From the IMG/VR virus record IMGVR_UViG_3300042453_001630, positions 1-24,915 of that record: 24,915 nt of DNA; one strand, written 5' to 3'. This document shows, piece by piece, positions 9,783 to 24,718 of this stretch. Both the position numbers and the translations under genes were made by a program. Origin of the DNA: a virus. The notes under the pieces are model-generated. The model was not told the origin of the DNA and did no database searches. It saw only the letters and a program-made list of their open reading frames with translations. Positions within the stretch are counted from its first letter, which is position 1, and each line of letters begins with the position of its first letter.

Positions 9783-9794
9783 TGCCCAACAGGA

Positions 9795-10952
9795 TTATCG
9801 ACCGCCAAAGATATCACCCAATGCGGGTCTTTGTCCAGTTGTTCCTTGTTGGGGTTGTGGGGCGGTTTGCCCGCCGCGCTGGCGATTTAAATTGTTGATC
9901 TCATCTTCAAGAATACCTTGATCGGCCAATGCTCCCTGAAGCTGTCTTTGTGTGGCTTTGTCGCTTGGACTTGTTTCAAGAAGTTTTTGGTAGCGAGCAA
10001 CCTCACCCTTGATTTTAATAACGTCTTTTTGGAGATCGCTTATGGTTCCTGAAATAGATTTCTTTTCCTCTTTTGCTTCGGCCTCAACACCCTTCATCTT
10101 TTCTCCCTCTGCATACTTTTTGCCGATGGCCTCATTCGCCGCAACATAATCAATTTTTCCATCTTTGGTGAAATCAGCAATGCTCATTCCGTATGCGCCA
10201 AGATCTTTAGCTATGGTTGCTTTAGCCTCCGCATCGGCTTTTGCTTCAGCGGCTAATCCAGTCATTTGTTTTTCTTGATATTGAAGCGCCCTTTGCAACA
10301 GATCTGGAACAACTTTCTGAACTGTTGGATGTTCTGCTCCTTCCATATTTAAAAGATTGTAAAGTGCTGACACAGCATCTGGATCTGTTGGAAGAATCGG
10401 TGCGGAAAAATTTCCGCTAGGAAGAGGGACGCCACCGCGAATGGATTTCAGAATAAAGTCAGCACCAGCTTGGATTTTTTGATTGTTTTTTTCAGTTATT
10501 TCTGATGCTTCTATTTCTAAATCTTGATCTTTTTTAAGTCGGGCCTCTTGCTGCTCCATCAGAGCAATCCTTTTTTGCTCTGATTCCATTTGTTGAGCCA
10601 TTTTTTGTTGCTCAATCATGTTCTTGTATTGCTCATCCCATTCCTGCTGCATGCGAAGACCTCTGCGGGTTGTGGCTTCGGGGCGTTCTCCCATTCCCCC
10701 ATAAGCTTTTGGAAGATCCATTGGATCACGGCGACCAGCCATAACTTCAGAAGCAACCCAAGCATCTTTTTCTGCTCGTGTTGCCATGGGAGATATTCCT
10801 CTTCCAGCTTCAAATCTTTCACGTTGTTGTGTTCCCAATGGAGAAAGTCCTGCTTCAGCATAGGCTTGGCGCGTTTCTCCAGAAGCAAGCGGAGAAACCC
10901 CGAATCCCATACGCTCCCTAATAATATCAGTAGATGTTAGCGGTTCGGCCAT
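9795..10952 (-). CDS. Coiled-coil phage protein with three N-terminal SPL repeats (virion-associated?)
   Basis: A 385-aa protein of unrecognised family. I chose the ATG at 10952 because it lies one base after the upstream stop (TAAtATG), the same junction seen at 22043; a longer version begins at 10988 inside the upstream gene. Residues 17-68 form three ~17-residue units with the pattern G-x-[VLI]-S-P-[LM]-x-[ST] (GVSPLASGE, GLSPLGTQQ, GISPMATRA). Residues ~90-165 and ~300-360 are Gln/Glu/Lys-rich and predicted coiled coil. The C-terminus is Gln/Gly/Pro-rich and disordered. Placed between a low-complexity protein and the giant polyvalent gene, it is most likely a virion or ejection component, but nothing proves this. 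Confidence 0.7.
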   Translation of the reverse strand: MAEPLTSTDIIRERMGFGVSPLASGETRQAYAEAGLSPLGTQQRERFEAGRGISPMATRAEKDAWVASEVMAGRRDPMDLPKAYGGMGERPEATTRRGLRMQQEWDEQYKNMIEQQKMAQQMESEQKRIALMEQQEARLKKDQDLEIEASEITEKNNQKIQAGADFILKSIRGGVPLPSGNFSAPILPTDPDAVSALYNLLNMEGAEHPTVQKVVPDLLQRALQYQEKQMTGLAAEAKADAEAKATIAKDLGAYGMSIADFTKDGKIDYVAANEAIGKKYAEGEKMKGVEAEAKEEKKSISGTISDLQKDVIKIKGEVARYQKLLETSPSDKATQRQLQGALADQGILEDEINNLNRQRGGQTAPQPQQGTTGQRPALGDIFGGR

Positions 10953-10953
10953 A

Positions 10954-12066
10954 TTACGCTCTTTCAAAAATCCTCCTACGCTGCTCATCTGTTATTGTAG
11001 ATGAAGCAAGACTTGAAGCGGCTGGCTGCGGCCCGCCAAGTCGCGATCCAATTCCGCTACGATTAGCAAAAAGAGAAGGAGCTTGAGCCAACGGCCCGCG
11101 AAAATCAGGAGCCTGTCCGACAGATCTTTGCATTGCGCCAAATCCAGTAGATGCCAAAATGGGGGCATTGCGCTCAACTCTTTGAGCCACCGCTTCTTGA
11201 GATTGTGGGAACAAACCAACAAGCGATTGACCGAATCTTCCTTGTGGCGCTGGTGTAGCAGCAAATCTTGGGCCTCGGCTTTCTCCAAATTCCCTCATGG
11301 TCTGTGTGTAGTTGCTGGCAATTTTTTGACCAGCATTTCTCATTTGTGCAAGCAGTGCCTGTTGCTGTTCGGGTGTTCTACTTCCTCCAAATCCAGCATT
11401 TGGTTCTGATGCTTTCATTGCTGCTAAAGAAACCCCAGAAATGTCTTTTGGAGTAAATGTATTTCTTCCTTGGTTTCTAGCCTGTTCGGTTGCTCTAGCA
11501 ATAGCAGAAATATCTCCAGTTGCTTTAGCGGCTTGAACCAACGGGTTTTGACTCCAGTCTGAAATTCTAGCAAAACCAGCCATTGGTCGAGATGCTTGTT
11601 CTGTGGCACTTGATGGCAAGATTGGTTGAGTTGTAGGTTGTGCTTGACTCTGAACTGGCATGGATAGGGCTGAAGAAATCTGTTGAGGTGCGGCAGCAGA
11701 ATAACTAGAAAATGGAGTTTGTGTTTTTGTTACATCAAACCTTGGAAGGCCAGCCGTTGCAGCAAAAAGTCCATAGTTATACGGTTGACTTGCTGGTTGT
11801 GGAGCGGGCTGTGGCTCGTTCCCCATTCCAAACATGGAACCAAACACAGGGCTGGTTCCCATAAGTGGCCCCTTATATTGAAGTTGCGAGAGTGATGCCC
11901 CAGCAGGCGGAACACTAACACCAGCCATGGTTGGGGGAGGGGTTCCAACAGCAGGAGTAAATGCCTGCATGATAGACTGTCCAACGCCGCGCAAAAAATC
12001 TCCAGTGCGTTGTGATGAAGGAAAAAGCGGCTTTCCTAAAATGGTTGGATTAAAATCAATGGCCAT
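10954..12066 (-). CDS. Low-complexity Ala/Gln/Pro/Ser-rich phage protein, unknown
   Basis: 370 aa, ATG start at 12066, 4 nt after the stop of the structural-type gene upstream, with no SD. The first ~40 residues look ordered (MAIDFNPTILGKPLFP.., an amphipathic stretch with FLRGVGQSIMQAF). Most of the remainder is rich in Ala, Gln, Pro, Ser and Gly and probably disordered, with short helical islands such as SQNPLVQAAKATGDISAIARA and TPEQQQALLAQMRNAGQKI. It ends with a basic helix (DEQRRRIFERA). Its position in the virion-type run suggests an internal or accessory virion protein. No catalytic motif, signal peptide or membrane segment is visible. Confidence 0.65.
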   Translation of the reverse strand: MAIDFNPTILGKPLFPSSQRTGDFLRGVGQSIMQAFTPAVGTPPPTMAGVSVPPAGASLSQLQYKGPLMGTSPVFGSMFGMGNEPQPAPQPASQPYNYGLFAATAGLPRFDVTKTQTPFSSYSAAAPQQISSALSMPVQSQAQPTTQPILPSSATEQASRPMAGFARISDWSQNPLVQAAKATGDISAIARATEQARNQGRNTFTPKDISGVSLAAMKASEPNAGFGGSRTPEQQQALLAQMRNAGQKIASNYTQTMREFGESRGPRFAATPAPQGRFGQSLVGLFPQSQEAVAQRVERNAPILASTGFGAMQRSVGQAPDFRGPLAQAPSLFANRSGIGSRLGGPQPAASSLASSTITDEQRRRIFERA

Positions 12067-12070
12067 AAAA

Positions 12071-13045
12071 TCAAGTCATATTTACGAGTCGGCGGGTTAG
12101 CCAAGGAGCAATTTGCATAACTCCTTCTTGCCCTGCGTTATACTCTTTTAGTTCGGCGTTGAGAAGGAGAATCGCTCTGTCCATGTAATATTGTCCGCGC
12201 TCGACATCGGCTTTTTCTTCGGCGTTAAGTGCCATAAGACCCAGCTTGATGGCCTCCAGTGAGTCGGGGTAGAGGGGGTCGTTGTCACTAATAGCCCAGC
12301 AATGTTTGCGTTTGAAGATGCCTTGGACGGCTTCCCAATTGCGATCCACCAGATAACGGCGATAGCTTATAGCCCGCTCCCCCGCCTCATACTTGGCCAA
12401 GGTGGTCGCTCCCGCTGATAGGGAGATAACGCCCGTGGTAGGGGTTTTCTCGACAGAATAGATCTCTTTGAATGTCTGAGATGTGGTTTGTGTTCCGTCT
12501 CCAAGGTCAAGACGAATTCCCTCCACTCGTTCTCCATCCACTGTAGAATAAATTTTATTCCCATTTGAGTCCTTTCCGCGAATCCAGATATAGCTTCCTG
12601 CACACTCTGTTTCACTGCTAGATAGGGTAAGTGCTGATGCGGTCTCAATGTCCCGAAAGGTTACAAAGCCTTCGCCCATGTCTTGAATCGGGCCGTAGTA
12701 TTTCTCGTCGGTCTTGCGGATGCCGCGCCCTTGGGGTAGATACTGATACCATTCGCTTTGGACTGCGTTTGTTTTATATCCAGATTTACCCGCCCGAATA
12801 CAGGTCTCCAGATGGCGAGGGAGAGTGATAAACTTATTATCGTTGGCGTCCTCGTAGGCCGTTATTGTTGCTTGTACCAGAGTACCAAGCCATTTACCCT
12901 CGCTCAAGACCCTCTCGCAGAAGCGATTAATATTATTACGGAGTTCGGCGTCCGCATCAAAACCCGCCAGATCGGGAGGATCGGCAACAGGTCGGACGGA
13001 CGCAGGAATTCTCTCGCAACAAAGCCCAAGGGAAAGACTCGACAT
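12071..13045 (-). CDS. Conserved phage structural-type protein (adaptor/tail-associated?)
   Basis: 324 aa from the ATG at 13045; a GTG at 13075 would add ten residues, and neither start has an SD. The frame shows features familiar from uncharacterised phage structural proteins: an N-terminal helical stretch with NNINRFCERVLSEGKW, a beta-rich middle (ITLPRHLETCI, YYGPIQDMGEGFVTFRDI, repeated Y/I/V strands with Gly turns) and a helical C-terminus (SLEAIKLGLMALNAEEKADVE) followed by repeated LLNAELKEYN-type helices. This helix-beta-helix shape suits a head-tail adaptor or tail-tube-associated protein, but I cannot assign it to a named family. It sits between the glycosyltransferase-like gene (47 nt away) and two low-complexity proteins. 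Confidence 0.65.
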   Translation of the reverse strand: MSSLSLGLCCERIPASVRPVADPPDLAGFDADAELRNNINRFCERVLSEGKWLGTLVQATITAYEDANDNKFITLPRHLETCIRAGKSGYKTNAVQSEWYQYLPQGRGIRKTDEKYYGPIQDMGEGFVTFRDIETASALTLSSSETECAGSYIWIRGKDSNGNKIYSTVDGERVEGIRLDLGDGTQTTSQTFKEIYSVEKTPTTGVISLSAGATTLAKYEAGERAISYRRYLVDRNWEAVQGIFKRKHCWAISDNDPLYPDSLEAIKLGLMALNAEEKADVERGQYYMDRAILLLNAELKEYNAGQEGVMQIAPWLTRRLVNMT

Positions 13046-13092
13046 AATTGGCAAAGAAATTACCACCTTCGCCACAGAAGGTCAATAGCGGA

Positions 13093-13878
13093 TTATTGCT
13101 TGAAAAGTAAATCCGCCGAAGCCCCACTTCCAACCCACGGCAAAAACTGTTTAAGATCTTTTACGGGCCACTCCGTATTACTTTGCAGTCTCTCCCAATC
13201 CTCACAGGCATTATCGTATCCACCTTTGTATATACGTTGTTTCTGGGCCACTTGTTGCGGGGTCACCCATGCCATATGAAGGATCTTGCCTACCGTCATG
13301 GAGGTCTTTCCACGATCTAGAAGCTTGCCCTTATTCCCGTTGAAGATCGGGGGCTCATGGCGCTCCATCCAAAGCCCAACACTATACCGCCAAGCCCGAA
13401 TCCACTCATTCTTCCTATTTCCATAACCATCTGTAGATGTGGATTTTACGTTAGGGCCAAGCATGTAATCCATTTCAAACTGAGCGGTATTGGTTTCGGG
13501 GTTTGCGGCGAATAGTTCGACTAATCTCCGCATCTGCTCTTCAGTCCATAACTCGTCGCTATCCATTTGAAGCAAGACCCCATCTTTTTTAAAGGCGGTC
13601 AACGCCGCATTGATCATCTCAGTCTTCCCGCCCCACTCTGGTTTGGAATTGACCGTGATTCGGGGATGGGATGCTAGGGCTTGCAGGAATTGATGGGTGC
13701 CGTCATGGGAGACTTTACCAGTTTGGTTCCCCATCCAAGATGTGTCCTTCTGGGGCATCGCCGCCCCCTCCACAATCGACCAATGCCAGTCGGTATCCCT
13801 TAATCGGCAAAGTTCGGCAAACTGCGCCCCGATCCACGGAGAACCATCAAGAACAATTGTAAATATGTTGAGGGTCAC
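13093..13878 (-). CDS. GT-A fold glycosyltransferase-like protein
   Basis: 261 aa. The start is taken as the GTG at 13878 because it overlaps the preceding stop as GTGA; the longer reading would need a TTG further upstream. The N-terminus MTLNIFTIVLDGSPWI is a beta strand leading into a loop as in family-2-like nucleotide-sugar transferases. Residues 84-109 (GKTEMINAAL..GVLLQMDSDELWT) carry a DSD motif at 106-108, matching the metal/nucleotide-sugar DxD site, followed by Glu. A later segment (MERHEPPIFNG, HMAWVTPQQVAQK) may be the acceptor side. It probably transfers sugar to a phage or host target such as a virion protein, DNA or surface glycan. The target is not inferable from sequence. It is unusual to find it next to structural genes. 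Confidence 0.7.
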   Translation of the reverse strand: MTLNIFTIVLDGSPWIGAQFAELCRLRDTDWHWSIVEGAAMPQKDTSWMGNQTGKVSHDGTHQFLQALASHPRITVNSKPEWGGKTEMINAALTAFKKDGVLLQMDSDELWTEEQMRRLVELFAANPETNTAQFEMDYMLGPNVKSTSTDGYGNRKNEWIRAWRYSVGLWMERHEPPIFNGNKGKLLDRGKTSMTVGKILHMAWVTPQQVAQKQRIYKGGYDNACEDWERLQSNTEWPVKDLKQFLPWVGSGASADLLFKQ

Positions 13879-14102
13879 AACCCGTCCCAAAGATCTCCCT
13901 GACCCAACTTATCTAGATATTCTCCGAAGGTAATTAGCTGTTCTTCGTTATAGATATAGTCGAATAGATGATCTCTGAGTCGATCTTCGCTATCTAATCC
14001 AAGCTCAAAGCACAAGGACTCAAAATAGGCATCTTGAACCCGCGAGAGTTCGTTGATGAAGTCTTTGACCTTGAAGATACTATCGTCTGGATGTGGTTTC
14101 AT
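13875..14102 (-). CDS. Small acidic helical protein, unknown
   Basis: 75 aa with an ATG that overlaps the previous stop as ATGA (14102-14099). It is rich in Asp, Glu and Leu and almost wholly helical (IFKVKDFINELSRVQDAYFE). No cysteine pairs, membrane segment or catalytic motif is visible, and I do not recognise the family. Its stop overlaps the GTG of the glycosyltransferase-like gene, so it is translationally coupled on both sides. Confidence 0.6.
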   Translation of the reverse strand: MKPHPDDSIFKVKDFINELSRVQDAYFESLCFELGLDSEDRLRDHLFDYIYNEEQLITFGEYLDKLGQGDLWDGL

Positions 14103-14236
14103 TTTTCTTTGAATCCACCCTTTTTACTCTTCATCTTCTTATAGACCTTGGGGTCGATAGTGGATTTGGATTTCGGGCGGCTAGTGCCAGCTTTTTTCCT
14201 TGCGTTGATATTGTCGTATAGTCCTTTTTTCTTCAT
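14099..14236 (-). CDS. Small lysine-rich phage protein (KKGLYxNI type), 45 aa
   Basis: 45 aa beginning MKKKGLYDNINARKKAG; I prefer this ATG at 14236 to a longer in-frame version reaching 14392, because the extension runs through the neighbouring gene and because small phage proteins beginning KKGLYxNIxAKRK are common in phage genomes. Upstream is AGGAAAAT, one of the few SD-like sequences in this window. About a third of the residues are Lys or Arg. Function is unknown; the charge suggests nucleic-acid or virion contact. It is the second of three small basic genes around the nuclease gene. Confidence 0.65.
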   Translation of the reverse strand: MKKKGLYDNINARKKAGTSRPKSKSTIDPKVYKKMKSKKGGFKEK

Positions 14237-14240
14237 AGTA

Positions 14241-14477
14241 TTATTTTCCTTTCTTAACTGATTTGCTTCCTTGGCATCCCCACTTTTTGCGGGAAAGACT
14301 GTTGGGAGAGTTGCGGTCTTTGCGCCAGTCTCCTTTGATTTTGTTACTACGGGCACAGTAGGCATCGGCGCGGGGGCTACCAATGGGGCCAATCTTGCTT
14401 CCCTTCTCTCCGTATTTTACGGTCTTCTTACGCCCTGTTTCAGGGTTGGTTACAGTTTTGCTGAATTTCTTTTTCAT
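14241..14477 (-). CDS. Small basic phage protein, DUF6321-like
   Basis: 78 aa from the ATG at 14477, which overlaps the nuclease stop as ATGA; a longer start at 14504 is inside the nuclease gene. Recognisable conserved pieces are VTNPETGRKKTVKYGEKG and DAYCARSNKIKGDWRKD followed by NSPNSLSRKKWGCQG. I remember this pattern from small phage and metagenomic proteins annotated DUF6321; the number should be checked. Two cysteines (in AYCAR and WGCQG) and high Lys/Arg content suggest a compact basic fold. No function is established. Confidence 0.7.
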   Translation of the reverse strand: MKKKFSKTVTNPETGRKKTVKYGEKGSKIGPIGSPRADAYCARSNKIKGDWRKDRNSPNSLSRKKWGCQGSKSVKKGK

Positions 14478-15340
14478 TTTTTTAGGTTTCTCCAGTAGTT
14501 GCAATGGCCTCTAACACGGCAGTAGTTCGCGCAACGTTTATCTTCCCCAAGCCGTTCCTCAACAACACCTCCGATACTTTTGGCGTGAGACTCAGCCTGT
14601 AGTCGGTCTTCGTAAGTCCCATTGTTAACCGCTCGCTTTGCTCCCTTTTTTGGGAGGACGGCATAGAGGTCTGGAACGCGCCAGCGTTCGGATTCAGTGC
14701 AGATCGGTATCTGGTCATCGTGAAGGTCTTTTGCTTGTTGGTGGAGTGTAATGCGGCTTTTGATATATGCAAACGTTTCTTCGGGCTTCCATGCATCCAG
14801 CTTGATTTCCACAATTGCACACTTTGGATAGTCAGCTTTAATCTTGGAGTCCCGCATTCTCCAATCTTTCATTACCAAGATGATGGCTGCGCGTTTCACT
14901 GGATAGCCATTGTGTTCCAGTAGCAGGCGGTTGACCGCCGCCTGTGCCGTCCACTCAAACCTGTCATCACTCATGGCCTTGTAGACGCTACTCACCTTGT
15001 AGTCATAGAGGACTTGCTCTTGCTTGTCATAGAGGTCGATCTGGCCTCCGAGTTTCACGCCGTCAACATCCAAATATAGCCTCACTTCTGCCAAGTATCT
15101 TTCGGGGTTGCGTTTGGCGATCTGCTCCAAAACATAATGGTTGGCAGTCCCCAGCATTGTCCACACGCGATCCGAAGCATCTTCGGTGATGGTGTCGGCA
15201 TGACGTTTCATCAACTCCCGAATCTTTGGAGGTTGGAAGAGGCTCGTTGTGGTGATGTCTGCCTCCCCCGCCGAATATGAAGACTCGCTCACCAAGTCAA
15301 CGAACGGCTGGGGGAGATTGAATGTATTAGTGACAGTCAC
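14474..15340 (-). CDS. PD-(D/E)XK nuclease, Cas4/RecB-like
   Basis: 288 aa. It starts with GTG at 15340, chosen because it overlaps the stop of the upstream small gene (TAGTG). Motifs: a His in GTANHYVLE (~68), the metal-binding Asp of GGQIDLYD (D102), the D-x-K core of LYDYKVS (D113, K115) and Gln133 in WTAQAAVNR, as in RecB/Cas4-type exonucleases. Four cysteines (C214 in IPICTESERW; C270, C274, C280 in CANYCRVRGHC) could hold an iron-sulfur cluster, as in Cas4/AddB-type nucleases. Expected role: DNA end-processing in phage recombination or replication, working with the OB-like and SWIM proteins upstream. No CRISPR context is present, so this is not a Cas4 in an adaptation module. Confidence 0.85.
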   Translation of the reverse strand: MTVTNTFNLPQPFVDLVSESSYSAGEADITTTSLFQPPKIRELMKRHADTITEDASDRVWTMLGTANHYVLEQIAKRNPERYLAEVRLYLDVDGVKLGGQIDLYDKQEQVLYDYKVSSVYKAMSDDRFEWTAQAAVNRLLLEHNGYPVKRAAIILVMKDWRMRDSKIKADYPKCAIVEIKLDAWKPEETFAYIKSRITLHQQAKDLHDDQIPICTESERWRVPDLYAVLPKKGAKRAVNNGTYEDRLQAESHAKSIGGVVEERLGEDKRCANYCRVRGHCNYWRNLKK

Positions 15341-15501
15341 TAGCGTTTCTTTTTCTTTTTGCTCATGCCAGCCTCGCTGAGTGCGATGGCCACAGCCTGT
15401 TTCTGGCTGGTAACTTTCTTACCAGAACCGCTTTTGAGTTTCCCGCTGCCATACTCGCGCATGACCTTACTGATCTTTTTTTCTCCTTTGGATTTCTTCA
15501 T
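15340..15501 (-). CDS. Small lysine-rich protein, DUF6496-like, 53 aa
   Basis: A 53-codon frame shorter than common ORF cutoffs. Sequence features: KVMREYGSGKLKSGSG, then QKQAVAIALSEAG and a run of lysines at the end (SKKKKKR). The EYG..LKSGSG/KQAVAIALSEAG pattern matches the small family I remember as DUF6496, found in phages and bacteria. It starts 3 nt after the SWIM protein stop, and its TAG overlaps the GTG of the nuclease. The strong positive charge suggests DNA or RNA binding, but no function is established. Confidence 0.75.
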   Translation of the reverse strand: MKKSKGEKKISKVMREYGSGKLKSGSGKKVTSQKQAVAIALSEAGMSKKKKKR

Positions 15502-15504
15502 ATA

Positions 15505-15765
15505 CTATGCTGCTATTTCTAGTTGGTTGTTGTTGGTTGGCTTCGGCGTTTCGACGCCCAAGAGTTTGCAGAGGTATCGGATATGGAAGCATTCTTTGCG
15601 GAAGTGATAGCCTGAACAAGTGCAGGAACATCCTGTGATGTCTCCCGCTTCATCGGTAGTGAACTCCACCAAGTAGTAGTCTTCGCGATTAGACCGACTT
15701 TGAACGAGGAATGATCCTTTATCATGCGACAGAATTTCGATGCCGCGCTCTCGCTCATCAGTCAT
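15505..15765 (-). CDS. SWIM zinc-finger protein
   Basis: 86 aa, ATG at 15765, overlapping the end of the OB-like gene by 8 nt. Residues 44-61 read TGCSCTCSGYHFRKECFH, a SWIM-type pattern C-x-C...C-x-H (C46/C48/C50, C59, H61), preceded by two beta strands (SFLVQSRSN, YYLVEFTTD). SWIM domains bind zinc and usually mediate DNA or protein contacts. In phages, small SWIM proteins often sit beside recombination genes, as here beside the nuclease. A role in DNA binding or recruitment is inferred; catalysis is not expected. Confidence 0.8.
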   Translation of the reverse strand: MTDERERGIEILSHDKGSFLVQSRSNREDYYLVEFTTDEAGDITGCSCTCSGYHFRKECFHIRYLCKLLGVETPKPTNNNQLEIAA

Positions 15766-16381
15766 TCGCTTGAGGATTTTTCAAGGATTCGGCCTTGCTT
15801 GCCCCGAAGCCAAGTTGTTCGGGCGTGTATGCCGTGATGGGCATTGCTGAAATATGGCCTTGGCGATCTGCCTGAATGAAGAGGGTGGTTGCAATTCCCT
15901 GACGATGCTGCTCTGGAAGGTTGAGTTCCACCGCAATATCATTGGCCTTCTTGACGCACAGACGCATCAGGTTTGCCGCCTGACAGAGGAATTGCTTGGC
16001 GTCCTTGTCTGGATGGGATGGGGCTGTAATAACCTTTTCTACGGGCTTCTGGAGCGATTGCGGGGTACTCTGGGCTGCGGGCAAGCTGGAAGCGGGCACC
16101 CCAGCAGGCTGGATCTCCATGGAATCAGTCTTTTGCTTGGAATTGCCAGAGGCAATAATGACTACCGACTTACCGACATATTGTTGGAATTTCGATGCAA
16201 TGTCCTTATTCTCAGTAAAATACACATGGGCTACGCCATCAACAATCAATTCGATAACGCACAACGAATTGTTCTTCACCCATTTAGGGGGCGATTTAAC
16301 TGATACGAGCTTCGGCCCGTTTTTCGCGAGCGTGAAATGTGAGAGGATTGGTGCTTTGGGTTGGTTGGATTGATATGCCAT
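15758..16381 (-). CDS. OB-like, possible ssDNA-binding phage protein
   Basis: 207 aa, first gene of the run after the terminator and promoter. Residues ~10-80 are beta-rich (FTLAKNGPKLVSVKSPPKW, LCVIELIVDGVAHVYFTEN, KSVVIIASG), consistent with an OB-like or single-domain fold. Residues ~85-125 form a Pro/Ser/Gln linker. Residues ~127-175 are a helical domain (AKQFLCQAANLMRLCVKKANDIAVE) followed by TLFIQADRQGHISAMP. Phage ssDNA-binding or DNA-metabolism proteins with a disordered linker have this layout, and the downstream nuclease and SWIM gene support such a role, but no diagnostic motif is seen. Confidence 0.6.
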   Translation of the reverse strand: MAYQSNQPKAPILSHFTLAKNGPKLVSVKSPPKWVKNNSLCVIELIVDGVAHVYFTENKDIASKFQQYVGKSVVIIASGNSKQKTDSMEIQPAGVPASSLPAAQSTPQSLQKPVEKVITAPSHPDKDAKQFLCQAANLMRLCVKKANDIAVELNLPEQHRQGIATTLFIQADRQGHISAMPITAYTPEQLGFGASKAESLKNPQAND

Positions 16382-16395
16382 ATAGGTAGATGTTC

Positions 16396-16422
16396 GTTAT
16401 ATCCGACAACCCAACCTGTCAA
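16396..16422 (-). promoter_or_regulatory. Sigma70-like promoter for the 16381-13875 run
   Basis: On the minus strand a perfect TTGACA (16422-16417) is followed after 15 nt by TATAAC (16401-16396, five of six matches). The spacer is shorter than the usual 16-18. Transcription would begin near 16389, leaving only ~8 nt before the ATG at 16381, and no SD is present. The position immediately past the HNH terminator is what a start for the next operon would need. Confidence 0.5.
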
Positions 16423-16428
16423 GCGTTC

Positions 16429-16466
16429 AAAAAAAAGCGGGGCCGAGTTTTTAGCCCGACCCCGCT
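16429..16466 (-). terminator. Intrinsic terminator of the HNH gene
   Basis: On the minus strand AGCGGGG (16466-16460) pairs perfectly with CCCCGCT (16442-16436), partly extended inward by C-G and G-C pairs after one mismatch, and is followed at once by eight T (16436-16429; the first T also closes the stem). It lies ~50 nt past the HNH stop and just before the promoter of the next operon, so it would isolate the HNH transcript. Confidence 0.8.
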
Positions 16467-16514
16467 CCACACACACATTGAAAACAGGAAGACGAATGCC
16501 TTCCATTAGTGAAT

Positions 16515-17279
16515 CTAGCAAATTTGGAAAATCATGCAAGGCATTTTTGTGCCCTTTTTCCAATTTTCTTTTGGATAAAGTGGTTGAAGGTTTGTCCAGT
16601 GGCAAGCCGTCTTTTGTTGCTCTGGATCAGTAAGATCAAAAGAAGCAAGTGGGCGAATGTGGTCTATGTGAAAACTGTTTGGCCTATCCCAAGCCATGCC
16701 TTCACGAAACTGGCTTTCAATGTGCTTGCGAAGAAACTCATAAGAACACCCTATTAAATCTATTGTTCTTGTTGATTTTTGAACGTTTGCTTTTTTTATT
16801 GAAATTCGTATTCGGCTTCTGATTCTAGAAGATAGAGCAAACTGAGGGTTGGTTTGATATTGTTTTTGCTCATATTTTCTCCGTCTTTCTCTAAATTTAT
16901 CTTTGTTTTTTTGGTAATAAATAGCATGCTTTTTTTTAATTTTCTTGAAATTTTTTTTGTAATATCTCGCTTTTTTCTCTTTTATTTTTTGCTTGTTTTG
17001 GGGATCTTCTCTCCATGCTTTCTGTTTTCTGTTAAACTCTAACTTATTTTTTAAATATCTTTCTTTGTTCTGTCTTAAATATCTTTCTCTATTTTTGGGA
17101 ATTTTTCTATATTCTTCCCTTGTTTTTTTTGTTTTTTCAAATGCTTCTGGAGAGAGCCACTTTTCGTATATTTTAATAGCCCCATTCTTGAGCTTTCGTT
17201 TTTGATATCTATAAAAAATTCTTCCATCAGATGGCCTAATAAATCCATGTTTGTGTTTTTCAGAATTTTGAGTAGTCAT
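16515..17279 (-). CDS. Free-standing HNH endonuclease
   Basis: 254 aa, ATG at 17279. The catalytic core is near the C-terminus: FHIDHIRPLASF (H204, D206, H207), then CHWTNLQPLYPKENW (N230, N239), the H-N-N arrangement of phage HNH nucleases. Residues ~60-140 are an Arg/Lys/Tyr-rich helical region with repeating R-Y-x-x-K-N-K units, as in many phage free-standing HNH enzymes, probably for DNA binding. It probably nicks or cuts related phage DNA lacking this insertion. Base composition is very AT-rich (13 G+C in 60 at 17041-17100 by hand count), unlike the DNA-metabolism genes next to it, which suggests recent acquisition. It has its own terminator and is divergent from the plus-strand cassette. 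Confidence 0.85.
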   Translation of the reverse strand: MTTQNSEKHKHGFIRPSDGRIFYRYQKRKLKNGAIKIYEKWLSPEAFEKTKKTREEYRKIPKNRERYLRQNKERYLKNKLEFNRKQKAWREDPQNKQKIKEKKARYYKKNFKKIKKKHAIYYQKNKDKFRERRRKYEQKQYQTNPQFALSSRIRSRIRISIKKANVQKSTRTIDLIGCSYEFLRKHIESQFREGMAWDRPNSFHIDHIRPLASFDLTDPEQQKTACHWTNLQPLYPKENWKKGTKMPCMIFQIC

Positions 17280-17295
17280 GTTTTATGGAAATAAC

Positions 17296-17310
17296 ATATT
17301 TTGAAAATAT
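17296..17310. promoter_or_regulatory. 15-bp palindrome in the divergent intergenic region
   Basis: ATATTTT-G-AAAATAT is a perfect inverted repeat with a single central base, lying between the start codons of the HNH gene (17279) and the 786-aa gene (17362). A further small hairpin (CAAGA, 5-nt loop, TCTTG) lies at 17313-17327. The place and symmetry suit a repressor operator, but AT-rich DNA makes short palindromes by chance more likely. Confidence 0.35.
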
Positions 17311-17324
17311 TGCAAGAAACAATC

Positions 17325-17353
17325 TTGATAGTAATGTTTTTTTAAAGTAGATT
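17325..17353 (+). promoter_or_regulatory. Possible promoter for the plus-strand cassette
   Basis: TTGATA (17325-17330) is followed after 17 nt by TAGATT (17348-17353). These are imperfect matches to sigma70 boxes. A start near 17360 would make the message almost leaderless before the ATG at 17362, and there is no SD upstream of that ATG. Confidence 0.3.
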
Positions 17354-17361
17354 TATCTCTT

Positions 17362-19722
17362 ATGGCAGAACAACCAGCTTTAAACCGCTCTTATGTTATA
17401 TCTTATGCGGCTAATGACAGGAATTTCGCGGTGGTTGGAATTCGCCTTGATCCACGTGTTGCGGGGTATCGGGTGCCAGAGGATCTAAGCCCGCACCCAG
17501 ATTCTAAACGGTATCCTAACCATGTCTTTACAGGCTCCCAGCCCTCCAATGGGGATGAGCGGGTTACCCATGTCTACGAGATCCTCCCTTCTCCTTGGGT
17601 TCCTTTTACCCGCTATGATGATGATCTAGGCCCGATCCAAGGAAGACGCAGGGCGGTCAAGAACGAGAGCCAGCAGGCCGATCTAACATCTTCTACCAAG
17701 ATCTCCTACGAAGGTCGCGATGGTTCGGCAATTGTTTCAAATGAGATTGAAGAGACTTGGTCAATCAAAACCGATGAAGATGGCAATTCTCTTTTCCCTC
17801 TAAAAGATCGGGATTTTTATGATGCTTCCCGTGGAGCCGTCCAAGAACGCCGCCAACTCTTTGTCCCAACAGGCGAAGAAGAGGGAACGCTAGAGAATGT
17901 CAACGGAGTCATCACCCAAACCTCCTACGAGCCTTACAACGAATTTCTTTCGGTTAAGGTTGTCCAGACATACAAAGTGGATGGGCCGCAATTGGTTGGC
18001 AATGTTACCGACGAGGCCAAACAGTTGGTTACGGTTACTACCCAGCGCAAGGGATCAGACGGGTATGTTCCTCCTAGCCCCAGCGCCACAAAGACCGTTG
18101 AGGTAACTAGGGAAGACGCCGAATCCTTAATTGAAAGGGTGGTAGACACGCCTGAAGTTTTTAGCGCCCAAGCCTATCGAAAAACCAAGGAAGATTTGAC
18201 TCCTCAAAAATTCAAAGCAGCGCAGGAAGATCAAGTTTTTGAACAAACTATAGAAGGAACGGCCAATCCAAATATTGTTTTAGCAACTGGCGAATTTGTA
18301 AAATCAGAAGAACAAGTCAATAAATTTACCAAGAGGGTATCCGTTACATCGCGTTCAATAACTTCTGCCGTAACACTTTTAGAGAAAGTTCTGACTCCTC
18401 AAGGTCAAATAGCAAACAGGATTCTCACTCTTGCTTCGGTAGATCAATCTTTTGTTCCTTCAGCGACCATGATTGATGCCAGTGTTGAGGCGTTGGGAGA
18501 CGGAAGAACAGTAAAAACAGAAGTAACCGTTCCTAATGTTTTCAACGCAAGAACCCTTTCAGCGGCGAAGCCAGATGTTATTCCAGAACAGTTCCAAGCG
18601 ACGAATCCTATTTTAACCACGCAGGAGATTGTTGCCCAATCAAGCGTTTCAATGCCTTCGTTGGGTTCCACCGATCTTGAAAAAAGGGAAGAAAGAATAG
18701 GAGAATTTACGGTTCGCAAAACATCGGCAACAAGAAGTATAACATTTCCAACTCTTCGTGGCCAAGAATACGACCCTAGTACAAATATCATAATAAAATT
18801 TAATGAAAAAATTGTTCCGTCAGGAAGCAGCCTTGGAAGACCAGCAACAATTGTAGATCCTATTTCTCAAGATTTTGATCTGGTAAAAGAATTTGATTTG
18901 GCTTCTATTCAGTCAGAGCTTAGTTCTATTTTATTTGAATTTCCAACAAGATCATCTTTGTCTCTGCCTCCAGTTTTAAAGGGCGTAACGGTAATTTATA
19001 ATGGATCTGAAGAAAACGCCTCATATCAAGGAATTGGAGGTGTCAACCAATTTCTTGGAAGTGGATCTATTTCTGACTCTGCAAGCGCGACCGCATCCGC
19101 TTCGGCAAAGGCCGATATTTCCATAGAAATGGAAGATGTTTTTGCGAGCAATATCCCAACAACAAGTTTTGTGTTTTTTTTAAAATATCCTGTTACTCTT
19201 AATAAGATTCTTGCAAAAGTCGGAGCACAACAATGGCCAGTATTTAAACCTAAATCTCATACAATTGTTGCAAGCGGAGAATCTAAATCGGTTAGAGTGT
19301 CCGCTTCTGGAAGTTGGTCTTCTTCTGCTGTTCCAAAATCTGCCGCTGCTGGGGAAGAGGGAATTACCACATTTCAATTCACAAAACAATCTGGATTTGG
19401 ATCTGGATATAGTTTAAGTAATAATGTTTCTATTGTTAATATTCCTTCGTGCCTCCATGGAAACATCGGAGTTCAAGAGCAGGGAAGTAATACTTATTCT
19501 GGAGAAGCAACAATTAACTTCAATTGGGGAAATTTGGGAATTTTTCCAAACACATCAAAATCAGTAGAAGCTAAAGCAAAATATTATGCCGATCTTGGCG
19601 CAACAACCCCAACTGATATACCAAGAGCGGGAAAATACTTAATTGATTCAAGAGTTGAAATTTATCAGTACGGATTTGCCAGAGTTTATGCCGAAGTTTT
19701 AGATGCTTCTATTTTTGCATAA
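17362..19722 (+). CDS. Large beta-rich repeated protein, fibre/adsorption-like, 786 aa
   Basis: No named domain is recognised. Most of the protein is beta-prone with many Ser, Thr, Val and Gly and few cysteines. Residues ~1-100 include aromatic and proline-rich motifs (ILPSPWVPFTRYDDDLG). A unit of ~110 residues appears twice, ~223-333 and ~353-460, sharing P-x-VF-[NS]-A...K-x-D-x-x-P-x-x-F-x-A and ending in TSRSI or ATRSI. Residues ~575-590 are Ser/Ala-rich, and the end is beta-rich. Size, repeats and beta content suit a phage fibre or other exposed virion protein, inferred only. G+C falls along the gene (34 of 60 at 17461-17520, 18 of 60 at 19141-19200 by hand count), hinting at a mosaic. 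It starts a plus-strand cassette with no SD. Confidence 0.75.
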   Translation: MAEQPALNRSYVISYAANDRNFAVVGIRLDPRVAGYRVPEDLSPHPDSKRYPNHVFTGSQPSNGDERVTHVYEILPSPWVPFTRYDDDLGPIQGRRRAVKNESQQADLTSSTKISYEGRDGSAIVSNEIEETWSIKTDEDGNSLFPLKDRDFYDASRGAVQERRQLFVPTGEEEGTLENVNGVITQTSYEPYNEFLSVKVVQTYKVDGPQLVGNVTDEAKQLVTVTTQRKGSDGYVPPSPSATKTVEVTREDAESLIERVVDTPEVFSAQAYRKTKEDLTPQKFKAAQEDQVFEQTIEGTANPNIVLATGEFVKSEEQVNKFTKRVSVTSRSITSAVTLLEKVLTPQGQIANRILTLASVDQSFVPSATMIDASVEALGDGRTVKTEVTVPNVFNARTLSAAKPDVIPEQFQATNPILTTQEIVAQSSVSMPSLGSTDLEKREERIGEFTVRKTSATRSITFPTLRGQEYDPSTNIIIKFNEKIVPSGSSLGRPATIVDPISQDFDLVKEFDLASIQSELSSILFEFPTRSSLSLPPVLKGVTVIYNGSEENASYQGIGGVNQFLGSGSISDSASATASASAKADISIEMEDVFASNIPTTSFVFFLKYPVTLNKILAKVGAQQWPVFKPKSHTIVASGESKSVRVSASGSWSSSAVPKSAAAGEEGITTFQFTKQSGFGSGYSLSNNVSIVNIPSCLHGNIGVQEQGSNTYSGEATINFNWGNLGIFPNTSKSVEAKAKYYADLGATTPTDIPRAGKYLIDSRVEIYQYGFARVYAEVLDASIFA
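18028..18741 (+). repeat. Two divergent ~110-aa units inside the 786-aa protein
   Basis: Protein residues ~223-333 and ~353-460 align by eye: DTPEVFSAQ.. against TVPNVFNAR.., KEDLTPQKFKAA against KPDVIPEQFQAT, FEQTIEG against TQEIVAQ, and SVTSRSI against SATRSI. The first unit lies mostly in G+C-richer DNA and the second in AT-richer DNA. They are too diverged for a recent DNA duplication. Confidence 0.5.
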
Positions 19723-19736
19723 AAATATTAAATAAA

Positions 19737-20186
19737 ATGGAAGAAAATAAAGATCAAAACTCTTCGATTGACCGCAGACTAGAACGCGAGCAACAAAGAT
19801 TTTCAAGACGGCTTGAGCGTGATATGCGGCGTAAAAGCGGATTCCATTCTAGCACCATTCGTGCATTGGAGTCTGAAAAAACCGCACAATGGGCCAATAA
19901 AATTTACGCAGAAAAAAGCGCACAAAATGCAGCGATAAATATCGGGAATGGCTTACGCCCCGCCGCATCAATGCCATCGTATAACTCCTCAAGCACATCT
20001 GGCCTTGGTGGAGGAGCAGAGTCGCTTAATACTGGCAATAATTATGCGACAGCAGGGAGTTTTGGCTCAGAAATAAATTCTCAGAAAAAATCTACTGATA
20101 CCGATAATGGATTTTATACAGTTTTTGTTTGTGTTGGTGGCGTGGCGAAACAATTAGACGTTTATGTTAGAAGTGATCCGTATTAA
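19737..20186 (+). CDS. Small partner of the fibre-like protein, unknown
   Basis: 149 aa, ATG at 19737, 14 nt after the fibre-like gene, with an A/T-rich leader and no SD. The N-terminal ~55 residues are highly charged and helical (DRRLEREQQRFSRRLERDMRRKSG), a probable coiled coil. Residues ~65-120 are Ser/Gly/Asn-rich and disordered. The last ~25 residues form a beta hairpin-like end (GFYTVFVCVGGVAKQLDVYV). A coiled coil plus a small beta end could suit a fibre-associated or chaperone-like partner, but no family is recognised. Its stop overlaps the stop of the convergent helix-turn-helix gene by 4 nt. Confidence 0.65.
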   Translation: MEENKDQNSSIDRRLEREQQRFSRRLERDMRRKSGFHSSTIRALESEKTAQWANKIYAEKSAQNAAINIGNGLRPAASMPSYNSSSTSGLGGGAESLNTGNNYATAGSFGSEINSQKKSTDTDNGFYTVFVCVGGVAKQLDVYVRSDPY

Positions 20187-20473
20187 ATTTTCGGTCTAAC
20201 AAAGTTCATTGTTTTAATAGTCCCTCCATCTTTGACCCTTTTCTTTTCACGATCAAACTTCTCCTCGCTGATCATGTTGCGAATTCGGGAATTGGACAGT
20301 CCAGTAATTTTCATTACTTGATCCACTGTTTTCCATCCATCAGCGTTCATCGCCTCAATGGTAGTGTATTCGCTGTTGTCTTTAAAAGACCTCCAAACAT
20401 CGTCCCACTGGTTGACTACAATTTTAGAAGCGGGCTTTTTTGCTCTATTAGTTTTGCTATGTGCTGTTTCCAT
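20183..20473 (-). CDS. Small helix-turn-helix-type protein
   Basis: 96 aa from the ATG at 20473; the longer reading to 20533 lies inside the phosphoesterase gene and is less likely. An AAAGGT lies ~10 nt upstream. The first ~20 residues are basic. Residues ~42-85 (ADGWKTVDQVMKITGLSNSRIRNMI, then EKFDREKKRV) have the spacing of a helix-turn-helix with a basic wing or tail, so it probably binds DNA as a small regulator. It overlaps the phosphoesterase frame by 58 nt and ends convergently against the plus-strand cassette. Confidence 0.6.
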   Translation of the reverse strand: METAHSKTNRAKKPASKIVVNQWDDVWRSFKDNSEYTTIEAMNADGWKTVDQVMKITGLSNSRIRNMISEEKFDREKKRVKDGGTIKTMNFVRPKI

Positions 20474-21213
20474 GAGAATGTACCTTTGTCTACGGTGAAG
20501 GTGAGGAATCCAAAGTCTACTTTGCCCACACATCGGCGGGCTCCGAACTTGCTGCCTGCTCCTTGGAGGGCTGGGGTGGTCATGGCAATCCAGTCATGGC
20601 CTCCGCAGAAGTTGTGGTAGTGGACATGGGAGCGCAGGATGACGTTGGCTTTGTGTTGCTCGCCATCTTCAGCCAGCAGCACATTCCACAGCCTGTCCTT
20701 GGCCACTGCTGTATGGCGCGTATGGGGGAGGCTCCCGCTTCCTGCTGGGTGGTGTTTGAGATCGAAGACGATTCCTTCGACTTCAATCCAGAGTTGGTCG
20801 GAGATGGTAGCTCCCACTCGTTCTGCGATAACATTCTCCCAATCCTCTCCGTCTGAGGAACTCACATGGTAGGGAGTGCCCCTTGAAATTGCTATCTTGC
20901 AGTTCTTTGTTTTCGGGATTTGACGGATGATCTTTACGGCCATATCCGCCTGATCCTCCATATCGGGGGCTAGAAGCTCCGTAGCCCCGCTTTTCTTCCC
21001 CTTACCGTCCACCAGATCTCCGTTGACAAAAACGATGTCGTAGGGGCCGTTGCGGGCAATCTCGCGGGCATACCATGTCCAGTGGGCTTTGTTGATTTGC
21101 GCCCAGAGCGGGATTTCCCCGTTTTCATCTTTTTCGGGCAACCAGCCTGTAGGGGTAAGCCCAACACGATGGCCGCAGTGAAAGTCCGAAAGGACTGCTA
21201 TTTTTTTGCTCAT
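20416..21213 (-). CDS. Calcineurin-like metallophosphoesterase
   Basis: 265 aa from the ATG at 21213, which overlaps the previous stop as ATGA; upstream codons to 21273 belong to the neighbour. Motifs in order: SDFHCGH (D10, H12), NGDLVDG (D66), RGTPYH (H116, in place of the usual GNHD), and RSHVHYHNF (H196, H198, H200), the metal ligands of this superfamily. Phages often carry such enzymes near replication genes; substrates may be nucleotides, RNA or DNA ends, and which applies here cannot be told. The C-terminus (GFLTFTVDKGTFSW) runs 58 nt into the helix-turn-helix gene. Confidence 0.85.
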   Translation of the reverse strand: MSKKIAVLSDFHCGHRVGLTPTGWLPEKDENGEIPLWAQINKAHWTWYAREIARNGPYDIVFVNGDLVDGKGKKSGATELLAPDMEDQADMAVKIIRQIPKTKNCKIAISRGTPYHVSSSDGEDWENVIAERVGATISDQLWIEVEGIVFDLKHHPAGSGSLPHTRHTAVAKDRLWNVLLAEDGEQHKANVILRSHVHYHNFCGGHDWIAMTTPALQGAGSKFGARRCVGKVDFGFLTFTVDKGTFSWKQHIAKLIEQKSPLLKL

Positions 21214-21812
21214 AGAGAGGTTGCTTGGTTGCAAAGATCTAAACACCGCGCATAGCCTATAATGTCTACACAACTATCCTTATGACGGGGTGAGTTGGTG
21301 AGTCTGGAAAGCTTGACCGCAATCATGCACATGGCGATTTGTTGCGGGGTCACATTGGTTCCAAGGATGGCCCCCCACATCTTGGCTTGCTTGGTAAAAT
21401 CTTCAATCGGGCTTCCGTAGTCGGTCTGGCGATCATAGGAAGTAAGACGTTTGGCAATGTCGCACACATCTTCTTTGTCCAATCTAACCATAGATGGGTA
21501 GAGACGCAAGGGTTTTTCTAGCCATTGGGCTACAGCAACTTCCGCTCTGGCTCCTTTGGACTTCTCCCACTTGGGAAGAAGAACCAACTCATCGCATTCA
21601 AAGACCGCATCAATATCTCTTCGGGCACAGTCCTCAATAAACTTGCTGTCCATTTGGGAGTTGTGGGGATTTAGCCCTAGCTCCTGATCCATCCTTGCGG
21701 GGTTGATAACTTTGTGCCCCGCTTTCAATAGGGTCTCTTCGGCCTCAAAGAATGCTGGATGATTGAGTTGTGGAATGCCGCGCATGGCCCCACAGATGTA
21801 TACTGTAGTCAT
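21210..21812 (-). CDS. DUF4406 protein fused to a DUF6378-like domain
   Basis: 200 aa, ATG at 21812, 9 nt after the previous stop. Residues 1-100 follow the DUF4406 pattern, a nucleoside-2-deoxyribosyltransferase-like Rossmann fold: VYICGAMRG (4-12), HPAFFEAEETLLKAGHKVINPARMD (18-42) and RRDIDAVFECDELVLLP, then KSKGARAEVAVAQWL. Residues ~126-195 (YGSPIEDFTKQAKMWGAIL, IAMCMIAVKLSRLTNSPRHKDS, IDIIGYARCL-like end) match what is annotated DUF6378 in phages. Each half is usually seen alone or in various combinations. It may act on nucleotides or modified bases, but activity is unproven. Confidence 0.75.
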   Translation of the reverse strand: MTTVYICGAMRGIPQLNHPAFFEAEETLLKAGHKVINPARMDQELGLNPHNSQMDSKFIEDCARRDIDAVFECDELVLLPKWEKSKGARAEVAVAQWLEKPLRLYPSMVRLDKEDVCDIAKRLTSYDRQTDYGSPIEDFTKQAKMWGAILGTNVTPQQIAMCMIAVKLSRLTNSPRHKDSCVDIIGYARCLDLCNQATSL

Positions 21813-21821
21813 GTGTTGTGT

Positions 21822-22043
21822 TTAGTTAAAATGGATAGACCGACTTGCCATCAAATCGTTCAAAATTTGGCGAATCTCTTCAACAGTAGCGTTATTCCAA
21901 TGAGGATAAGCATTGTGCTTAAGATGATTGCGTAGCTCGTTATCAAGGTCATTAAGAACGCAATACATATCACCCGCCTTAACTGCTTGCTCAAACTCAA
22001 CCTGTTCTTCGGGCAAGCTGAAGGATAGTAATCCATTGGCCAT
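21822..22043 (-). CDS. Small conserved phage protein (LPEEQVEFEQAV type)
   Basis: 73 aa, ATG at 22043 one base after the upstream stop (TAAtATG). The pattern SLPEEQVEFEQAVKAGDMYC, then VLNDLDNELRNHLKHN and TVEEIRQILNDL, recalls a small protein present in many unrelated phages. It is acidic and helical. I know no established function. It lies among nucleotide-metabolism genes. Confidence 0.65.
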   Translation of the reverse strand: MANGLLSFSLPEEQVEFEQAVKAGDMYCVLNDLDNELRNHLKHNAYPHWNNATVEEIRQILNDLMASRSIHFN

Positions 22044-22044
22044 A

Positions 22045-22308
22045 TTAAGAATCTTTGATAACCTTCTTTAAATCGCCGTCATCCAAATCATCATCATCGT
22101 CATCTTCTTCCGATTGCCCGTAAAGGATATCATGGATGTTAGAGACCAGTCCTTCAATGGCGTAATCATTGCCAAACTTAATGAAGGCGTTCTTTGTTTC
22201 CTGTCCCTCTTCAAATGTGGCCACAATAAACCCAGAATCGAAATATTCAACCAGATCTTTCGATAGCTTGTCCAAGACCTTTTGGAGCCTTTCGTCGTGG
22301 ACGGCCAT
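22045..22308 (-). CDS. Small protein with acidic tail, unknown
   Basis: 87 aa, ATG at 22308, 4 nt after the zinc-ribbon stop, no SD. Residues 1-65 form a helix-strand mix (LDKLSKDLVEYFDSGFIVATF, AFIKFGNDYAIEGLVSNIHD). Residues ~68-80 are nearly all Asp/Glu (EEDDDDDDLDDGD) and the end is basic. Acidic tails of this kind occur in DNA-mimic or ssDNA-binding-associated phage proteins, but there is no further support for either. Family unknown. Confidence 0.6.
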   Translation of the reverse strand: MAVHDERLQKVLDKLSKDLVEYFDSGFIVATFEEGQETKNAFIKFGNDYAIEGLVSNIHDILYGQSEEDDDDDDLDDGDLKKVIKDS

Positions 22309-22312
22309 AGAC

Positions 22313-22468
22313 TTAATCGATCTGTTCTTTGCAGTTGCGGCATGTCTTGATTATTCCGACATGGGCAACGTGGATTTGTTCAATATTATTTGATCCGCAA
22401 TAGTAGCAAGATTTTGCTTCGGGCTTGCGGTAGACTTTTTTCTTGCGGGGTTTTGCCTCGTCCTTCAT
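22313..22468 (-). CDS. 51-aa zinc-ribbon protein
   Basis: A frame of 51 codons, shorter than usual cutoffs. Its ATG (22468) shares a base with the endolysin stop (TAATG), and the stop lies 4 nt before the next gene, so it fills an otherwise empty gap. The first ~17 residues are basic (KPRKKKVYRKP). Two C-x-x-C pairs (CYYC and CRNC, ~20 residues apart) form a typical small zinc ribbon. Probable nucleic-acid binding; function unknown. Confidence 0.75.
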   Translation of the reverse strand: MKDEAKPRKKKVYRKPEAKSCYYCGSNNIEQIHVAHVGIIKTCRNCKEQID

Positions 22469-23151
22469 TACGCTTTCGATGGATTGATTCTGATGTAATT
22501 TCTTACCAGTGAAGGTGTTCTGGTTTTAAGCCAAACGCCATCACCTGAGTTGCTATCCCTTGTTCCGCGCTGGTTGGTATTCCCTTCCACACACTGGAAA
22601 TTGTTTTCTCCAACCTTGACCACAATTCCAATATGTGAGAAGTCAAAAATCACCAGATCACCAACTTGGGGTTTGGCTTTCTCTGTCAGAATCTTGGTAG
22701 TTGCAGGGCGGGATTTGGCCCATTCAATATATCCGAATGCCGCTGCCGTTTTAGGTCTCCATTTCTCTGGAGTAAGAAGTTTGAGATTGAGCCATTTAAC
22801 AACATCTGGGTCTTTAAGCCATTCGCGAATTATCCACGATGTAAAGGCGGCGCACCATGGCCAAGCTGCTGGTTTTAAGGTAGTTGCAGATTGGTATTCC
22901 CGAATCTTGGCTCCTTTATTGTTCCCACCAACCTCTTTGACTCCGACTTGAGACAGTGCAATCTCAACGAGTCTTTCGATTGCGGGGCTTTCTTTTTTTT
23001 GGGGTGCTACTGGAACGCTCGGCTCTGGCGCGGAGTTCGTCTTGGATTCGGACGGCAAGCTCGGCAAGGACGGCGCTTGGCCATCTTTTGATTCTAGCCC
23101 AAGTAGTTTCAGGATCAATTGCCACACGGCGGCATTTCTCCAATCTACCAT
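22468..23151 (-). CDS. Endolysin, CHAP/NlpC-type cysteine peptidoglycan hydrolase
   Basis: 227 aa from the ATG at 23151 (a TTG at 23178 would add nine residues; I prefer the ATG, which overlaps the stop of the small gene upstream by 7 nt). Residues 1-20 are a hydrophobic helix (NAAVWQLILKLLGLE), and 21-55 are a Pro/Ser linker. From ~57 the catalytic domain reads IERLVEIALSQVGVKEVGG, PWCAAFTSWI (C100), GDLVIFDFSHIGIVV (H173) and CVEGNTN (N191), the C-H-N/E arrangement of CHAP amidases or endopeptidases. It should cut peptidoglycan at lysis. The N-terminal helix might be an anchor or signal-arrest segment; that is uncertain. It lies next to holin-like genes. Confidence 0.85.
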   Translation of the reverse strand: MVDWRNAAVWQLILKLLGLESKDGQAPSLPSLPSESKTNSAPEPSVPVAPQKKESPAIERLVEIALSQVGVKEVGGNNKGAKIREYQSATTLKPAAWPWCAAFTSWIIREWLKDPDVVKWLNLKLLTPEKWRPKTAAAFGYIEWAKSRPATTKILTEKAKPQVGDLVIFDFSHIGIVVKVGENNFQCVEGNTNQRGTRDSNSGDGVWLKTRTPSLVRNYIRINPSKA

Positions 23152-23345: not shown

Positions 23346-23357
23346 GGGAAAGAGGCT

Positions 23358-23717: not shown

Positions 23718-23721
23718 TTGA

Positions 23722-24006: not shown

Positions 24007-24022
24007 AGGTTTTAAAGCTAGA

Positions 24023-24699: not shown

Positions 24700-24718
24700 A
24701 GCCTATGGTCTCCGTCCT

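Follow-up and report, generated by a model that had tools for sequence, protein, structure and literature searches.

An AT-rich gene for an HNH endonuclease-like protein in the window (the whole 24,915-nt stretch of the viral record IMGVR_UViG_3300042453_001630 that was analysed here) appears to be a sporadic insert beside a pre-existing small RNA (sRNA) gene; the terminator of this sRNA and the TTGACA box of the next operon predate the insert, and the sRNA itself probably acts in trans. Judging from the comparison of related sequences, we assign this reading a probability of about 0.8. The first-pass annotation had described the HNH gene, together with the terminator and the promoter found next to it, as a self-contained insertion. 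The insertion stands, given that 57 of 66 related loci show no HNH gene in the DNA examined and that its limits can be read against relatives with an empty site, but the self-containment does not, because parts of the supposed unit predate the insert.

In the mechanism that we propose, a free-standing, homing-type HNH gene would have entered the gap between two divergent phage genes and replaced a few dozen bases, with its reading frame running into the sRNA promoter, the -10 box of which would provide the stop codon. The sRNA would be terminated by the hairpin with eight T, and the TTGACA box would belong to the promoter/operator of the next operon. The sRNA would probably act in trans, with its GU-rich linker pairing with the CA-rich start of the DUF4406-DUF6378 mRNA and altering its translation. 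The features involved are listed in Table 1.

Table 1. Features of the insertion site, its flanks and the predicted sRNA target (window coordinates).
Feature	Coordinates	Strand	Basis or remarks
Conserved downstream gene (207 aa) without a family match	15758..16381	-	Query for relatives
Ancestral promoter/operator of the downstream gene	16396..16422	-	TTGACA with dyad TTGACA-N8-TGTC
Predicted sRNA, ~77 nt	16429..16505	-	Start inferred from the -10 box; structure-model matches
Intrinsic terminator of the sRNA	16429..16468	-	Hairpin 16468-16434 and T tract; also in empty relatives
Unpaired GU-rich linker of the sRNA, CAATGTGTGTG in the window	16469..16486	-	TGTGTG in 49/55 distinct stretches
5' hairpin of the sRNA, GGAAGGC-ATTC-GTCTTCC	16487..16504	-	Folding
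sRNA promoter, TTGCAT-N16-TAGATT, TG one base before the -10 box	16512..16539	-	Conserved boxes
HNH endonuclease-like gene, 254 aa	16515..17279	-	ORF; conserved motif residues; annotated phage match
Segment inserted or replaced in comparison with the empty relative L001	16541..17338	-	~798 bp in place of ~26 bp (L001:5817-5842)
Divergent gene, 786 aa, highly variable among relatives	17362..19722	+	Comparison with relatives
DUF4406-DUF6378 gene, CA-rich start region, predicted sRNA target	21210..21812	-	Profile matches; duplex energies

The HNH gene and its product

The first-pass annotation was right that the HNH gene is far poorer in G+C than its neighbours: its G+C content is 32.5%, whereas the downstream gene has 50.3%, the divergent gene 42.8% and the window as a whole 48.3%; of all 765-bp stretches in the window, the three poorest (30.3–30.5%, with starts at 16636–16661) lie mostly inside it. 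Nine HNH copies in relatives are also poorer in G+C (34–40%) than their own loci (41–47%), so that the low G+C content is a property of the HNH gene family. The situation named at the outset as speaking against an insertion, with all homologous phages carrying the gene at matching composition, is not what is seen among the relatives: most lack the gene, and the copies that exist differ in composition from their loci.

The residues H204-I-D206-H207 and H227-W-x-N230-L-Q-P-L, which we take to be the HNH catalytic motif, are invariant in all 10 HNH homologues. The protein matches 114 of 50,697 phage records, with no match covering 80% of its length; among the best 20 of the 114, one is annotated as a putative HNH endonuclease and one as endonuclease VII. 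The profile libraries yielded no named HNH family, with nothing matched in Pfam at E ≤ 0.1 or in NCBIfam at E ≤ 1. The AlphaFold model has a mean pLDDT of 73.9, with confident N-terminal and helical parts and an unsure HNH part (below 60 across the motif). A Foldseek comparison of this model with the PDB produced no match at E ≤ 0.001, and the sequence has two weak matches among PDB chains, both to unrelated proteins (E of 0.23 and 0.99). An initial search for close relatives of the HNH protein was negative, and a search with the HNH alignment as the query found 161 relatives, of which 79 distinct loci were kept. The sole firm group in the HNH tree (10 rows) unites the window copy with that of L054 (99/99), and both of these copies lie upstream of the sRNA promoter. 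By its sequence, the gene most likely encodes a free-standing homing-type endonuclease; the insertion of an HNH nuclease gene is in itself ordinary.

Distribution of the HNH gene among relatives

The relatives comprise 66 loci on viral contigs of uncultivated phages that were found with the downstream gene as the query, several of them near-duplicates (for example, L009/L010 and L054/L056). HNH homologues were sought by tblastn (threshold of 1e-4) in the DNA examined around these loci. An HNH gene lies between both flanking genes in five loci (L020, L031, L054, L056 and L057) and is missing from this place in the other 61; four loci carry it elsewhere in the DNA examined (L043, L058 twice, L060 and L064), and in 57 of the 66, no homologue was detected at this threshold in that DNA. 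The distance between the start codons of the two flanking genes is 198–269 bp (median of 211) in the 61 loci that have no HNH gene at the site, compared with 823–1134 bp in the five loci that have one and 981 bp in the window. The copies located elsewhere lie 3' of an exonuclease gene (L043, L058 and L060) or 3' of a glycosyltransferase-like gene (L058 and L064) and are always oriented with the operon. Overall, the presence and absence of the HNH gene mark it as a sporadic insert; its family occupies two positions within the gap between the divergent genes and two other gene junctions, with no dependence on an intron or intein. L058 contains two different HNH copies (8415–9164 and 10934–11749) within one operon, each at its own gene junction.

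Limits of the insertion

Comparison with HNH-less relatives, which the first-pass annotation had proposed as the way to find the limits of the insertion, does yield them. In the alignment of the window with L001, a relative with an empty site whose downstream protein is 97% identical to that of the window, homology extends up to 17339 and is found again from 16540, with the edges uncertain by a few bases. The insert ends a single base short of the -35 box of the sRNA promoter. This ancestral promoter supplies the last ~8 codons of the HNH frame (PCMIFQIC) and its stop codon, TAG, which sits within the -10 box.

The other occupied sites fall on one or the other edge of the same element. In L020, compared with the empty L011, homology breaks at L020:5042 (L011:5790) and restarts at 5845 in both, which is the base before TTGCA. 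In L054, compared with the empty L062, homology restarts 7 bases before TTGCA and, on the other side, is already lost inside the divergent gene. Between L031 and L012, homology continues past the terminator hairpin, up to L031:5334, and restarts at 6022, inside the downstream gene, so that in L031, the HNH gene lies after the terminator, the T tract of which is reduced to four T. The HNH gene of L057 likewise follows the terminator. There, the HNH frame (5103–5957) begins with a duplicate of the downstream gene's initial codons (MSFQNPNQREKD), and the downstream gene itself, which comes after the HNH frame, has a different upstream region and a different start codon; the insertion thus seems to have captured the translation start of the downstream gene.

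The preservation of expression at the invaded locus, as originally claimed, is plausible in effect, given that the insert stops at the edge of the pre-existing sRNA promoter; it would not depend on imported regulatory parts.

Neighbouring genes

The products of the two flanking genes differ in conservation: that of the divergent gene is 40% identical to its counterpart in L001, compared with 97% for its neighbour. Segments of the divergent gene match in repeated blocks in several relatives; as a guess, this is perhaps a fibre-type gene, and an exchange boundary perhaps lies at the sRNA region. Upstream in window coordinates, 237–9782 encodes a 3181-aa protein with AAA_34 and helicase C-terminal matches, for which no PHROG match was found at E ≤ 0.01. 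The 50,697 phage records contained no match to the downstream gene, to 12071–13075 or to 1120 residues of the 3181-aa protein.

Terminator and downstream promoter

The strong hairpin followed by eight T that had been noticed beyond the HNH gene is borne out by folding. It consists of 14 pairs (9 of them G-C), the most among the 24 terminator-like sites listed for 9700–24915, and the fold of 16417–16480 reaches -29 kcal/mol (z of -4.7, with none of 200 shuffles as good). The hairpin, the run of T and the TTGACA box are all found in relatives that have no HNH gene (such as L001, L009 and L011), and the homology to the empty L001 and L011 spans the terminator and the TTGACA box unbroken. Both elements thus predate the insertion, and the assignment of the terminator and the promoter to the HNH gene as its own was rejected. 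Because the hairpin in these relatives lies between divergent genes and has no protein-coding gene upstream in its direction, what it ends must be short and non-coding. We infer that, in the window, HNH transcripts also end at this terminator and would thus carry the sRNA as their 3' end.

Beyond the hairpin, TTGACA-N15-TATAAC is present as the first-pass annotation had it (TTGACA at 16422–16417 and TATAAC at 16401–16396). A consensus promoter scan with spacers of 16–18 did not list this site because the spacing is too short, and promoter-like sites in 9700–24915 are not in excess (18 found, compared with 20.0 expected). The TTGACA box occurs in 54 of 67 sources (the 66 loci and the window). 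Of the 30 distinct stretches that contain it, 15 have TATAAC at the same spacing and all 30 have the dyad TTGACA-N7/8-TGTC (spacing of 8 in 28 and 7 in 2); the inner bases of the dyad and the -10 box vary among the relatives. The dyad possibly represents an operator for a repressor at the start of the operon. It occupies 16422–16405 of the minus strand in the window and starts at 5579 in L062.

The predicted small RNA gene

The conserved element that adjoins the HNH gene is best read as a small RNA gene with its own promoter and terminator, a reading that is based on the conservation of its boxes and its predicted structure. In an alignment of 55 distinct stretches that were anchored on the linker and unselected for the boxes, each base of TTGCA is conserved in 100%, the TA of the -10 box in 95–96% and its TT in 91–95%, compared with a mean of 57% in the spacer; the TG one base before the -10 box is conserved in 89–95%, and 48 of the 55 stretches contain TTGCAW-N16-TANNTT.

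A structure model built on 19 close members matches the window and 59 of the 66 loci at this place (E ≤ 0.01 for the window and 46 loci, and 0.02–0.8 for 13 more); second matches elsewhere are just weak reverse-strand ones, in L046 and L047. In the seven loci without a model match (L041, L042, L054, L056, L057, L060 and L062), the element was judged to be present by eye. Thus, by model or by eye, the element is found in the window and in all 66 relatives, including all five with an HNH gene at the site (the L056 stretch is identical to that of L054).

In the model-fitted alignment of all 62 matches (44 distinct rows, including the two weak reverse-strand matches), 97.6% of the cells are paired, two-sided changes occur at 19 of the 21 modelled pairs and none of 500 shuffles scores as high on any of five measures, although fitting to the model makes these counts lean towards structure. 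When 12 diverged members were aligned without such fitting, 3 of 14 pairs were compensated, all of them in the terminator, and the first hairpin was not predicted; L046 folds without the first hairpin.

A known Rfam RNA was considered and rejected given that, in the window, no family of Rfam 15 reaches its gathering score (the best sub-threshold E value is 0.33). Two Rfam families, BTnc201 and AniS, have a similar layout of a hairpin, a UGUGUGUG-type single strand and a terminator, but the sRNA is not a member of either, scoring 18.8 and 16.5 bits where the gathering scores are 105 and 50, respectively (E of 0.33 and 1.2); the likeness is probably due to chance or convergence.

A scan of the viral collection with the linker pattern identified 38 stretches, all on contigs of the 66 relatives (with the names compared by eye), and among 35 pattern-matched stretches in bacterial genomes, no relative of the downstream gene was confirmed. 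A search of the window for CACACATGAAAA with 2 mismatches revealed no excess.

Other readings of the conserved element have to be weighed against that of a trans-acting sRNA. The element could be a leader, with transcripts from the TTGCA promoter reading into the downstream operon whenever an antiterminator forms; the element is found beside the same gene, and the contigs of all 38 pattern-matched stretches hold that gene. We consider such attenuation unlikely, given that in 54 of the 67 sources a separate TTGACA box for the downstream gene follows the terminator, that no fold of the nascent RNA in the window competes strongly (-12.8 before and -34.5 after formation of the 3' arm) and that no conserved pairing partner was noticed, without a dedicated search, between the terminator and the gene. 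To about the same extent, we doubt that the terminator merely insulates the divergent operons from antisense or stray transcription, with the RNA itself being functionless. A strong terminator in this place would provide insulation in any case, but insulation leaves the conserved -35 and -10 boxes, the compensated 5' hairpin and the conserved unpaired linker unexplained.

Far less probable is a small peptide encoded in the conserved stretch. An ATG does occur in the linker of many members (CATGTGT or AATGTGTG in 47 of the 55 distinct stretches), but by inspection, the length differences of the linker are not multiples of three, so that no peptide frame is kept, and the changes follow base pairing. 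Least credible of all is the joint arrival of the HNH gene, the terminator and the promoter as a cassette: the three parts adjoin in the window and HNH transcripts would stop at the hairpin, but hairpin, T-run and TTGACA occur without the HNH gene, in unbroken homology to L001 and L011, and the HNH genes of L031 and L057 follow the terminator instead of preceding it.

Predicted target of the small RNA

For the sRNA, which we favour over these alternatives, a target is predicted from pairing energies: the linker is predicted to pair with the start region of the DUF4406-DUF6378 gene. When the linker was compared with the start regions of 17 genes across the relatives, this gene stood out, with a mean duplex energy of -16.6 over 15 distinct starts, compared with -9.6 for shuffles, and with the other genes at z of -1.4 to +0.8; the gene was chosen after looking at all 17, and the relatives are not independent. 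Of its 48 distinct start regions, 46 (96%) reach -14 kcal/mol or lower, compared with 0–13% for 12 other genes. In 21 distinct pairs of sRNA and start region taken from the same sequence, the mean z is -2.5 and 17 pairs fall below -1.5, whereas control genes have means of +1.19, +0.60 and +0.42; these pairs were scored against dinucleotide shuffles, with the linker found by a pattern that fits close members only.

An open target scan covered all reading frames of at least 45 codons in 24 sources. The DUF4406-DUF6378 gene is among the top three in all eight sources where its start can be scored (the window (W), L009, L012, L032, L036, L038, L040 and L046), and among the 16 sources that have no scorable start of this gene, no one target recurs consistently. 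The top match in the window and in L038 is the reverse strand of the sRNA itself. The linker of the window has an extra A that bulges the pairing, and there the gene ranks third of 96 frames (z of -2.0).

A weaker candidate is the gene at 20183–20533, with a mean z of -1.46 over 11 pairs (5 of them below -1.5) and a place in the top three in 9 of the 24 sources of the open scan. The product of this gene has a weak HTH/excisionase-like match, and its start region reads ACACATGG or ATGGAAACAACACAT in relatives.

Shine-Dalgarno-like words occur at 3 of 25 gene starts of the window, compared with a background of 10%, with 5 of the 25 coordinates not being start codons; because the starts mostly have no such word, pairing across the start codon instead of at a Shine-Dalgarno site is plausible. 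As for the direction of the effect, we would by default guess repression; the CA-rich leader might have a different role. The few Shine-Dalgarno sites, together with the TTG-N19-TAnnTT spacing of the sRNA promoter, which is presumably Bacteroidota-like, may point to a host that can do without such sites.

More tentatively, and with a probability that we would put below even, a trans-acting sRNA at the head of an exonuclease-containing operon would control the DUF4406-DUF6378 gene and perhaps the gene at 20183–20533, through pairing of its linker with CA-rich starts devoid of Shine-Dalgarno sites; HNH elements would have landed on either edge of the sRNA gene, leaving it intact, and would use its terminator, so that the endonuclease mRNA would end in the sRNA and could release it.

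Relation to known systems and implications

As described in the relevant part of PMC2988022, phage T4 carries free-standing HNH and GIY-YIG endonucleases in intergenic regions; such invaders may displace promoters, and expression of nrdB is maintained by a middle promoter that separates it from mobE. With the T4-type mob genes, as presented there, the gene described here shares the HNH motif, the free-standing intergenic location, the sporadic occurrence and the preservation of neighbouring promoters. It differs from them in that the preserved neighbour is a small RNA gene, the terminator of which is shared with the HNH gene, and in that cleavage and homing are putative here. The portion of PMC10448857 drawn upon here concerns homing endonuclease genes near boundaries of genetic exchange, and the HNH gene of the window is similarly placed between a variable gene (40% identity to L001) and a conserved one (97%).

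Small regulatory RNAs encoded by phages are a known kind (PMC12197685, in the part considered). The predicted sRNA resembles the RNAs covered there in being short and intergenic and in having its own promoter, an intrinsic terminator and a predicted target at an mRNA start; it differs from them in lacking a gathering-score match in Rfam and in being known from sequences of uncultivated phages alone.

Thus, the mobile nuclease appears to borrow a terminator rather than bring one, and it leaves the neighbouring RNA gene in place. The insertion exposes an sRNA gene that lies beside one gene in every relative fetched and has a statistically outstanding predicted target, which provides a concrete test case of RNA control in a group of phages that has no cultured relative among the records searched. 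At such sites, one genome taken alone would lead to regulation being credited to the wrong element.
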